Below, piece by piece: positions 40,973-41,730 of a stretch of 64,000 bases of DNA. Where the stretch lies: assembly GCF_003814705.1 (NCBI RefSeq), contig NZ_RKRA01000001.1, forward strand, positions 3,168,776-3,232,775, given 5' to 3'. The DNA comes from Georgenia muralis (GTDB lineage: Bacteria; Actinomycetota; Actinomycetes; Actinomycetales; Actinomycetaceae). Numbering within the stretch: position 1 is the first letter of the stretch; every line of letters starts with the position of its first letter. The position numbers and the translations under genes were made by a program. The notes beneath the pieces were generated by a model. The model had not been told where the DNA came from. It did not search any database and saw only the letters and a program-made list of their open reading frames with translations.

Positions 40973-41440
40973 TCAGGCGGTCGGGCAGGACGTCTGGCCG
41001 ACCAGCCGCTGCGTGAGGCCGAAGGCGGCGAAGGAGACGGCGAACATCGCGCCGGGGACGGCGTGCGCGGGGTTGTTCGCCAGGGTCACCACGGCGCCGA
41101 CGACGCCGACGGCCGCCAGCGCCGCGCACGTCGAGCAGCCGGTGTCCACCACCGTACCGGCGCCGGTGAGCGGGACGTACGAGGCGAGCGTGCCCGCCGC
41201 GAGGACGGCCGCTGCGAGCACGAGCGCGCTCCACGCGGGCGGGCCGCCCCAGCCGCCCCCGGCGACGACCAGGACGACGGCGAGGGCGGGTGCCGCCACG
41301 GCCGCGACCAGGAGCCGCCGGGCCGGCCATTGGTCGCGCAGCCGCGGACCCGCGACCGCCGCCAGGGCAGGGCTCGTGAGGTCCAGGCCGGCGTGGGCGG
41401 TCTCCTCGGTCGGCGGGACGGGGGCGGACGGGGCAGCCAT
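40973..41440 (-). CDS. Four-helix membrane protein with CxxC, under CsoR-like operator
   Basis: A 155-residue hypothetical membrane protein: a 38-residue cytosolic lead, then helices at about 42-61, 68-88, 104-121 and 128-146. C102 and C105 form a CxxC (TGCSTCAAL) at the mouth of helix 3, and C152 lies in the tail (TSCPTA). I know no named family. ATG 41440 is preceded by TATGGT with a 6-base gap, so it appears leaderless, and that -10 overlaps the first ATACCCC-GT-GGGGTAT palindrome. It is divergent from the six-cysteine peptide gene, which has a second copy of the operator. Co-regulation by a CsoR-family repressor, and therefore a copper or reactive-sulfur role, is inference. Confidence 0.7.
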   Translation of the reverse strand: MAAPSAPVPPTEETAHAGLDLTSPALAAVAGPRLRDQWPARRLLVAAVAAPALAVVLVVAGGGWGGPPAWSALVLAAAVLAAGTLASYVPLTGAGTVVDTGCSTCAALAAVGVVGAVVTLANNPAHAVPGAMFAVSFAAFGLTQRLVGQTSCPTA

Positions 41441-41448
41441 GAGCGCAC

Positions 41449-41466
41449 CATACCCCGTGGGGTATG
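41449..41466. promoter_or_regulatory. CsoR-like palindromic operator 1
   Basis: CATACCCC-GT-GGGGTATG has perfect 8-base arms with a 2-base spacer. It overlaps the minus-strand -10 TATGGT (41447-41452) of the four-helix membrane protein gene. The TACCCC...GGGGTA core is the hallmark of CsoR/CstR-family operators. Confidence 0.75.
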
Positions 41467-41498
41467 CGTCACTCTGGCTCCCGCCGGGTGGACAGCAC

Positions 41499-41514
41499 AT
41501 ACCCCGTGGGGTAT
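41499..41514. promoter_or_regulatory. CsoR-like palindromic operator 2
   Basis: ATACCCC-GT-GGGGTAT is identical to operator 1 over 16 bases and starts 49 bases away. Its right end runs into TATAAA (41512-41517), the likely -10 of the six-cysteine peptide gene, so bound repressor would occlude that promoter. Confidence 0.75.
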
Positions 41515-41553
41515 AAAAGTCGGGTACCCCTTCCTGAGACCGAGGAGAGAACC

Positions 41554-41670
41554 ATGTGCAGTCCCGCTCGATGCAACAGCTGTGGCAAGATCACCTGGAC
41601 CGGCTGCGGCATGCACGTCGACCAGGTCTTCGCAGGCGTTCCCACGGAGCAGCGCTGCACCTGCCGCTGA
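41554..41670 (+). CDS. 38-residue Cys-rich peptide (candidate metal/thiol binder)
   Basis: The protein is 38 residues with cysteines at 2, 7, 10, 18, 35 and 37 and a histidine at 21. The core ARCNSCGKITWTGCGMHVDQ joins a CxxC knuckle to a CGxH, and the end RCTCR gives a second CxC. This resembles a small conserved family of uncharacterised peptides I remember only as hypothetical; it is not MymT or a known metallothionein. ATG 41554 has GAGGAGAG 5-12 bases upstream. The promoter carries operator 2 and a terminator hairpin follows, so it is a separate regulated transcript. Metal buffering, a zinc-ribbon role or persulfide handling are all possible. Confidence 0.82.
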   Translation: MCSPARCNSCGKITWTGCGMHVDQVFAGVPTEQRCTCR

Positions 41671-41686
41671 CGCGGACACCCTGACC

Positions 41687-41730
41687 GACGGCCCGTCGCG
41701 ACGCCTTCCCCCGGCACGCGGCGGGCCGTC
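41687..41730 (+). terminator. Terminator hairpin after the Cys-rich peptide gene
   Basis: GACGGCCCGTCGC (41687-41699) pairs with GCGGCGGGCCGTC (41718-41730): 13 pairs, one of them G-U, with an 18-base loop. It lies 16 bases after the stop codon and also faces the end of the convergent VWA gene. Confidence 0.65.

Follow-up and report, generated by a model that had tools for sequence, protein, structure and literature searches.

A cysteine-rich peptide family of Actinomycetota linked to persulfide-type operators in Georgenia muralis and its relatives

Which signal controls a 38-residue cysteine-rich peptide of Georgenia muralis, and what might the peptide do? Its gene lies beside a divergent membrane-protein gene in a 64,000-nucleotide stretch of the genome, which is called the window hereafter. 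A sequence-only reading of the window had proposed a new regulon, in which the two genes share twin operators of the CsoR family, the peptide buffers or carries copper, zinc, or reactive sulfur, and the membrane protein is its partner. In the present study, we compared the operators, the peptide, and the membrane protein with those of related genomes and of plasmids. Membership of the peptide in a CstR/ScCsoR-type persulfide regulon is strongly supported by these comparisons, as is a conserved set of putative ligand residues in the peptide. The regulon itself is of a known, persulfide kind and not new; the peptide and the membrane protein are its unnamed parts.

Twin operators between two divergent genes

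The features of the locus are as follows (window positions).

40973 to 41440, minus strand: gene for a 155-residue membrane protein with a GCxxC motif and a C-terminal cysteine; its mRNA is probably leaderless
41450 to 41465, no strand: operator 1, a copy identical to operator 2, over the -10 element of the divergent membrane-protein gene
41489 to 41517, plus strand: peptide promoter TGGACA-17-TATAAA
41499 to 41514, no strand: operator 2, ATACCCCGTGGGGTAT, over the -10 element of the peptide promoter; like sites are enriched upstream of homologues
41542 to 41549, plus strand: Shine-Dalgarno-like sequence GAGGAGAG; a Shine-Dalgarno-like 4-mer is present in 142 of 155 family copies
41554 to 41670, plus strand: gene for the 38-residue cysteine-rich peptide, ATG to stop, a member of an unnamed family of Actinomycetota
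41687 to 41730, plus strand: imperfect inverted repeat 3' of the peptide gene, found by eye, without a T-run

The two identical palindromes, both ATACCCCGTGGGGTAT and 49 bp apart from start to start, were found between the two genes as the sequence-only reading had described. An exact match to the palindrome occurred in 0 of 100 dinucleotide shuffles of the window. The reading had proposed looking for further copies in the genome; in its 4,143,265 bases, ATACCCCnnGGGGTAT occurs three times, as the window pair and a third copy at C1:1315307, and the reversed control gave 0. These controls rule out a chance origin of the palindromes.

The claim that each palindrome covers a -10 element also held; the promoter elements were identified by eye and their letters verified. 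The peptide promoter consists of TGGACA (41489-41494), 17 bp, and TATAAA (41512-41517), and operator 2 overlaps TATAAA. On the minus strand, operator 1 overlaps TATGGT (41452-41447). As TATGGT is only 6 nt from the ATG of the membrane-protein gene (41440), the mRNA of this gene may be leaderless. A consensus promoter scan, which requires a -10 element ending in T, reported none. The peptide gene has its own ribosome-binding site (GAGGAGAG), as proposed. Its proposed terminator was not confirmed, because the inverted repeat (arms 41687-41699 and 41718-41730) has no T-run and a terminator scan gave no intrinsic terminator.

The operator class and its targets in the genome

The spacing of the palindrome separates two classes of CsoR-family operators. 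Spacer 4 in TACCCn4GGGTA corresponds to TAC-X8-GTA (X8), and spacer 5 to X9. According to the available parts of the two papers, ScCsoR, the sulfane-sulfur sensor of Streptomyces coelicolor, binds ATACCn6GGTAT, an X8 site (PMC7533328), and the motif of the copper CsoR of S. lividans is TAC-X9-GTA (PMC3902906). The window palindromes fit the persulfide-type operator and not the copper X9 motif; the claim of a CsoR-family operator therefore stands, as a ScCsoR/CstR-type X8 site. An X9 site at 1214429 precedes a copper-type csoR gene of this genome, which contains five other X9 sites.

A search for csoR or cstR genes, also suggested by the earlier reading, gave three genes of the CsoR family (PF02583) in the genome. 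Two are, by reading, of the copper type: their neighbours are CopZ/CopA-like or P-type-ATPase genes, and they have retained HxxHC (HLNHC and HMRHC). The third (L036, C1:1810998-1811258; PF02583, 88.1 bits) has two cysteines in ...DC...SMRQC and no copper histidine, and was assigned by reading to the persulfide (CstR) type. The NCBIfam RicR model scored 141 bits for the first copper-type copy and 41 for L036, both below the cut-off of 175.

The pattern ATACCCn4GGGTAT (ATACCCnnnnGGGTAT), with up to one mismatch, gave 14 sites in the genome, seven exact and seven with one mismatch; the reversed control gave 0. The seven exact sites comprise the window pair, four at sulfane-sulfur-type genes, and one at a multicopper oxidase. 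Thus, the same operator stands at sulfane-sulfur genes at four of the five other exact sites, as well as in near-matches at a sulfide:quinone reductase (SQR) gene and the CstR-type gene. The neighbours of the sites below were assigned by reading and domain-checked in part.

C1:1315307, exact: before a rhodanese gene and a gene like persulfide dioxygenase (PDO)
C1:1809808, exact: before a rhodanese-like frame and a gene like CoA-disulfide reductase (CoADR)
C1:1810035, exact: at a thioredoxin-DUF302 pair
C1:2932781, exact: at the start of a lipoprotein-like rhodanese
C1:3035734 (L225:7735), exact, a clean X8 site: by a SHOCT/multicopper-oxidase operon
C1:1810950, one mismatch: before the CsoR-family (CstR-type) gene at 1810998
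C1:1814182, one mismatch: before an SQR-DsrC-DsrE2 operon

At operator-linked genes, the domains thioredoxin, DUF302, rhodanese, Lactamase_B with Rhodanese, Pyr_redox_2, DsrC, and DsrE2 were confirmed. In NCBIfam, the SQR scored 633 bits (cut-off 525), and the CoADR-like protein scored 389, under its cut-off of 578.8. The SQR (C1:1814283-1816409; L223:9284-11410) matched the NCBIfam model 'type III SQR, selenoprotein subtype'; it has the one-mismatch operator ahead of it and is followed by DsrC and DsrE2.

The peptide family and its linkage to CstR

Neither Pfam nor NCBIfam contained a match to the peptide (41554-41670; MCSPARCNSCGKITWTGCGMHVDQVFAGVPTEQRCTCR) at E ≤ 1; it fits no model of these databases for a described peptide or metallothionein family. 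Homologues were found in 100 of 151 genomes of the same taxonomic family and, by a search with an alignment of 19 sequences (A1), in 50 of 396 genomes of the phylum; both counts include the own genome. We fetched 112 same-family regions, covering 115 of 119 other places (four weak places were dropped), and 40 phylum regions from 55 other places. A hidden Markov model found the peptide in 151 of these 152 regions (155 copies); L221 had none. A homologue with 57% identity is also present in an unannotated gut phage scaffold (MT835623.1, L232). Fungi may have small proteins of a similar kind.

The family members range from 37 to 84 residues. The 153 unique sequences comprise 37 short forms of at most 43 residues, among them that of the window, and 116 longer forms; 74 of the latter contain a loosely defined hydrophobic C-terminal motif, and the short form in the window has no such tail. 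C2, C10, G17, C18, G19, H21, and C35 are invariant in all 153, and C7 (152), W15 (150), T14 (148), and K12 (140) are nearly so. Position 37 is Cys in 87 sequences and the His of a CxGH-type pattern, which permits G or K, in 66; none lacks both, and all 153 sequences thus terminate in CxC or its CxGH-type swap. Exchange of Cys and His is typical of metal sites. The conserved Cys/His set therefore suggests a metal site, for which zinc is the candidate, and the peptide is probably folded and metal-binding. An AlphaFold2 model (mean predicted local distance difference test (pLDDT) 80.5, predicted template modeling score (pTM) 0.41) has strands at residues 3-6 and 13-16 and a helix at 19-27, which places C18xxH21 at the helix start. 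The best sequence match to solved structures had an E value of 0.15. Among five Foldseek matches, none of them significant, one is titled as a zinc finger and two more are, we presume, zinc fingers.

Cysteine attenuators are known in mycobacteria, and the window gene, a short Cys-rich open reading frame, might be a leader whose translation, rather than its product, matters. The codon evidence contradicts this explanation: in 10740 sequence pairs, codon positions 1, 2, and 3 differ 109909, 100298, and 201339 times, respectively, and every synonymous codon is in use for the invariant Gly and Cys, a pattern of protein-level selection. Moreover, the Cys codons of the window gene do not form a run, conservation of Gly, Trp, Lys, Thr, and His is complete or nearly so, and the gene often closes an apparent operon. 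We regard a cysteine-sensing leader peptide as barely credible.

The operator accompanies the peptide gene in relatives; the following linkage and site counts ignore kinship. TACCCn4GGGTA was found between -300 and -1 in 42 of 114 same-family copies and 11 of 41 phylum copies. When sites at the same-family loci were counted in 250-bp bins, the bin immediately ahead of the start contained 51 sites in 113 windows, and each downstream bin between 0 and 3. Site numbers rose again between -2.5 and -1.5 kb (four bins, 30 sites), in agreement with operons that place a CoADR gene ahead of the peptide. In the 151 regions (1,267,810 bases), the sites upstream of the peptide numbered 62 with spacer 4, one with spacer 3, and one with spacer 5; the other spacers from 0 to 12 gave none upstream, and the reversed control also gave none. 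Elsewhere in these regions, there were 64 spacer-4 sites.

The repressor gene shows the same association. Of 116 same-family copies, 56 (in 53 of 98 genomes) had a CsoR-family hit no more than 2.2 kb away, with hits of 46 bits or above accepted. At a cut-off of 50 bits for CstR, 76 of the 151 genomes had both CstR and the peptide, six CstR only, 22 the peptide only, and 47 neither (Fisher p 1e-15, a statistic that likewise ignores kinship); the peptide is thus carried by 76 of 82 genomes with CstR. An X8 site lay within 2.6 kb upstream of 74 of 88 copies in CstR genomes versus two of 26 copies in the others. In three genomes (G042, G102, and G125), a CsoR-family gene with a low score lies at most 200 bp from the peptide; if these are scored as CstR genomes, the counts become 76 of 91 versus 0 of 23. 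Five genera hold both kinds of genomes, and the genomes with a site are distributed among them as follows.

Genus g10: CstR genomes 2 of 2, CstR-less genomes 2 of 7
Genus g16: CstR genomes 4 of 4, CstR-less genomes 0 of 1
Genus g23: CstR genomes 5 of 8, CstR-less genomes 0 of 3
Genus g26: CstR genomes 5 of 5, CstR-less genomes 0 of 3
Genus g32: CstR genomes 4 of 5, CstR-less genomes 0 of 2

Conservation of the operator with the peptide was therefore borne out by the enrichment of upstream sites, the spacer of 4, and the dependence on CstR.

Gene neighbours were searched with tblastn (E ≤ 1e-7, more than 50 bits) within 3.5 kb. Among 111 same-family loci, CstR was found at 54, CoADR at 59, and rhodanese at 63; among 40 phylum loci, CstR was found at 19 and rhodanese at 14. 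CstR or one of the tested sulfur genes (CoADR, PDO, rhodanese, and SQR) was present at 73 of the 111 and 22 of the 40 loci. The peptide gene is often directly beside the CoADR or CstR gene. In a cluster of 33 CsoR-family proteins, none has, by reading, the copper His that precedes the second Cys. A copper-type CsoR query matched six same-family and five phylum loci, each time below the scores of the CstR queries. In genus g23, a few hundred bases separate the peptide gene from an operon for SUF iron-sulfur assembly. This arrangement was seen at L138 and, as judged from gene clusters, at L080, L128, and L140; SufBD domains were confirmed in L138 alone among these loci.

The peptide is also carried by plasmids (77 of 72,556 records), including the Mycolicibacterium crocinum plasmid NZ_CP092363.2. 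Among the 40 plasmid matches listed, 35 have no annotated feature at the peptide, four are annotated as 'hypothetical protein', and one is in an unannotated record. From these 40, we chose 14 stretches for variety of organisms, 13 of which are annotated. By reading, 11 of the 13 contain a CsoR-family ('metal-sensitive') regulator within 5 kb, and 10 contain genes for rhodanese, metallo-beta-lactamase (MBL)-fold (PDO-like), TauE, or DsrE proteins; the peptide is listed as a gene in three, in a gene table known to be incomplete. A site was found within 300 bp upstream in seven of the 14 stretches and within 2.6 kb in 10. In four plasmid sulfane-sulfur clusters (L146, L234, L239, and L240), genes for an MMPL transporter, a YgaP-like/DUF2892 membrane protein, DUF302, and TauE recur next to the peptide. 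On plasmid pRHL3 of Rhodococcus jostii RHA1, the peptide gene (RHA1_RS51140) has MBL-fold (PDO-like) and trxA genes on one side and genes for rhodanese, MMPL, and CsoR-family proteins on the other. The Rhodococcus antarcticus plasmid locus L148 carries a multicopper oxidase gene and a DUF4395 gene in the vicinity of the peptide.

These data also bear on the choice between persulfide and copper as the signal. Mycobacterial MymT is a tiny Cys-rich peptide in the copper regulon of RicR, a CsoR-family repressor, and the window peptide might be a copper metallothionein of a similar CsoR/RicR regulon. This explanation agrees with the CsoR-type palindrome ahead of a peptide rich in Cys and with the presence of two copper-type CsoR genes in the genome. 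It also agrees with the X9 site that precedes one family member (L082) and with the multicopper oxidases close to one X8 site of the own genome and to the peptide of the R. antarcticus plasmid. However, copper operators are TAC-X9-GTA (PMC3902906, available part), as is the site before the own copper-type csoR gene, and upstream of the peptide spacer 5 occurred once versus 62 times for spacer 4. CopA-like genes were found within 3.5 kb on either side of the peptide at 0 of 151 loci. Because the operator is X8, not X9, and CopA-like neighbours are absent, a copper signal is disfavoured, and we consider a copper metallothionein very improbable. Of the three candidates in the sequence-only reading, reactive sulfur is favoured as the signal on the grounds of X8 and the sulfur-gene targets, and copper is not; zinc is possible as the metal bound by the peptide, judging from the ligand swap, and found no support as the signal.

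The membrane protein has a narrower distribution. Searches of Pfam and NCBIfam found nothing like it at E ≤ 1. Eight strong homologues were found: in the own genome, G052, G133, G107 (two), G126, G008, and G061, that is, in six other genomes of the 151, versus 100 with the peptide; weak matches occurred in 13 further genomes (E 4e-4 to 8e-3). Seven of the eight lie within 1.1 kb of the peptide gene, two divergent and five on the same strand 0.5-0.7 kb downstream. In G061 (72% complete), an X8 site stands just upstream of the membrane homologue (L226:4334), but no peptide was found in the genome or in the 8-kb contig (best 7 bits). GCxxC and the C-terminal Cys are common to the seven aligned homologues (G008 is not in the alignment), and hydropathy and charges suggest that these residues face the cytoplasm. 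The structural model of the protein was of low confidence (mean pLDDT 53.9) and was not used. The G126 copy has an in-frame TGA inside the aligned stretch, and a Pfam search with the longer frames of two homologues found nothing at E ≤ 0.01. At L065 and L069, 3' of the peptide, a similar frame without a Pfam match lies between the peptide and the membrane homologue and is continuous with the membrane part. The two-gene module therefore holds locally and not as a general arrangement, and the membrane protein is rejected as a general partner of the peptide outside close relatives.

A possible role in persulfide stress

We propose that the peptide is a dedicated component of the persulfide stress response under a CstR-type repressor, acting as a zinc-thiolate carrier of sulfane sulfur, and we consider this proposal, on the whole, probable. 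The CstR-type repressor (C1:1810998-1811258) would bind the twin TAC-X8-GTA sites and block the promoters of the peptide and of the divergent membrane protein. Modification of a cysteine by persulfide would release the repressor from the DNA, which has been reported for Streptomyces ScCsoR. The two genes would then be turned on along with those for rhodanese, persulfide dioxygenase, CoA-disulfide reductase, thioredoxin, and sulfide:quinone reductase. The peptide would be a miniature zinc-thiolate protein, with ligands from C7xxC10, C18xxH21, C35, and C37 or its His swap. The invariant Cys2, right after Met1, would become a free N-terminal Cys if Met is removed. The peptide thiolates would take up sulfane sulfur and pass it to rhodanese or thioredoxin, with the zinc kept or released. 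Buffering or relay of sulfane sulfur is suggested by analogy with two systems: sulfane sulfur is bound by metallothionein-3 in the form C-S-S-Zn, and thioredoxin restores the protein (PMC12618007), and in Staphylococcus aureus sulfide lowers zinc availability and causes a zinc-limitation response (PMC5480029), as far as the available parts of these papers describe. Binding of zinc, carrying of persulfide, removal of Met, and help from the membrane protein are what we infer. More tentatively, the family as a whole might be a bacterial zinc-persulfide buffer, a CstR-induced carrier of sulfane sulfur built on a zinc-thiolate core and an N-terminal Cys. In some close relatives, it would be accompanied by a CxxC membrane protein that moves sulfane sulfur, or electrons from it, at the membrane.

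Several observations weigh against this proposal. In the genome of G. muralis, the peptide has neither CstR nor any recognised sulfur gene as a direct neighbour, one of the seven exact sites (C1:3035734) adjoins the SHOCT/multicopper-oxidase operon and is unexplained, and five of the seven near-matches (1115045, 1464573, 2886367, 3757861, and 4135132) have no clear link. Among relatives, 23 of 111 same-family and 13 of 40 phylum loci lack a site within 300 bp and have, in the 3.5-kb range, neither CstR nor any of the tested sulfur genes. Some genera with CstR have few or no genomes with an upstream site (g15, 0 of 3; g17, 0 of 1; g7, 1 of 3), and the peptide is kept in 19 genomes counted as CstR-less that have no X8 site within 2.6 kb upstream (for example, L139 in G080 and L077 in G074). 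L082 (G015), from a genome without a CstR hit, carries a lone X9 copper-type palindrome at -59, and its peptide may answer to another CsoR-family protein. As the peptide persists in CstR-less genomes without X8, one of them with X9, its role is not tied to the CstR-type repressor alone, and it may have a housekeeping role there. In addition, a zinc-finger-like fold is not established (pTM 0.41; best Foldseek matches in PDB at E 5.4-10, not significant).

Two other roles within the same regulon were considered. The peptide might be a small zinc store made in sulfide stress, against loss of zinc to sulfide or its release from persulfidated proteins, and carry no sulfur. The conserved Cys/His ligands with their swap, the response of S. 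aureus to sulfide (PMC5480029, available part), and an ArsR-family regulator and a CDF transporter near one plasmid locus (L237) are consistent with such a store. However, the CxxC/CxxH spacing and the conserved K12, T14, and W15 resemble a defined fold and not a metal sponge, and the neighbours are mainly sulfurtransferases and related genes, although zinc genes were not searched systematically; we think this role unlikely. Alternatively, the peptide might be an adaptor, a tiny zinc finger that tunes rhodanese, CoADR, PDO, or CstR or recruits a partner to the membrane. Conservation beyond the ligand residues, the hydrophobic motif of 74 of the 116 longer copies, and the frequent position directly beside CoADR or CstR would suit an adaptor, but the short form in the window has no tail, and we also regard this role as doubtful.

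The proposed sulfane-sulfur carrier resembles known systems in part. In the ScCsoR circuit of S. coelicolor, persulfidation likewise releases a CsoR-like repressor, the ATACCn6GGTAT sites are 16 bp long and occur as a pair in one promoter, and PDO and rhodanese are among the targets; the genes named in the available part of the paper are those for CsoR, PDO, rhodanese, and a sulfite transporter, and no peptide (PMC7533328). The S. aureus CstR regulon is also governed by a persulfide-sensing CsoR-family repressor, which controls tauE, cstA, cstB, and sqr; in the available part, no such peptide is named, and the hypothetical genes of that regulon were not compared (PMC5480029). Growth inhibitory factor/metallothionein-3 is, like the proposed peptide, a zinc protein rich in Cys; it takes up sulfane sulfur, and thioredoxin reduces it (PMC12618007, available part). 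However, it is mammalian, the likeness drawn here is one of properties, and the ligand spacing of the peptide is finger-like. MymT differs in belonging to a copper regulon, and the window peptide has no NCBIfam match. Among the titles listed by searches of an open-licence library, none was recognised as describing the peptide, and six peptide sequence strings matched three papers, all unrelated.

The repressor, the operator, and the enzymes are of already known kinds, and the peptide is the part that matched no Pfam or NCBIfam family. Bacterial persulfide responses have been described as enzymes and a sensor. As 76 of 82 same-family CstR genomes have this near-constant small-protein partner, the actinobacterial persulfide system may have had a missing part, overlooked because of its small size. 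If sulfane sulfur is carried on a zinc-thiolate core, the peptide would join zinc and reactive-sulfur homeostasis, a link already reported for mammalian metallothionein (PMC12618007, available part).

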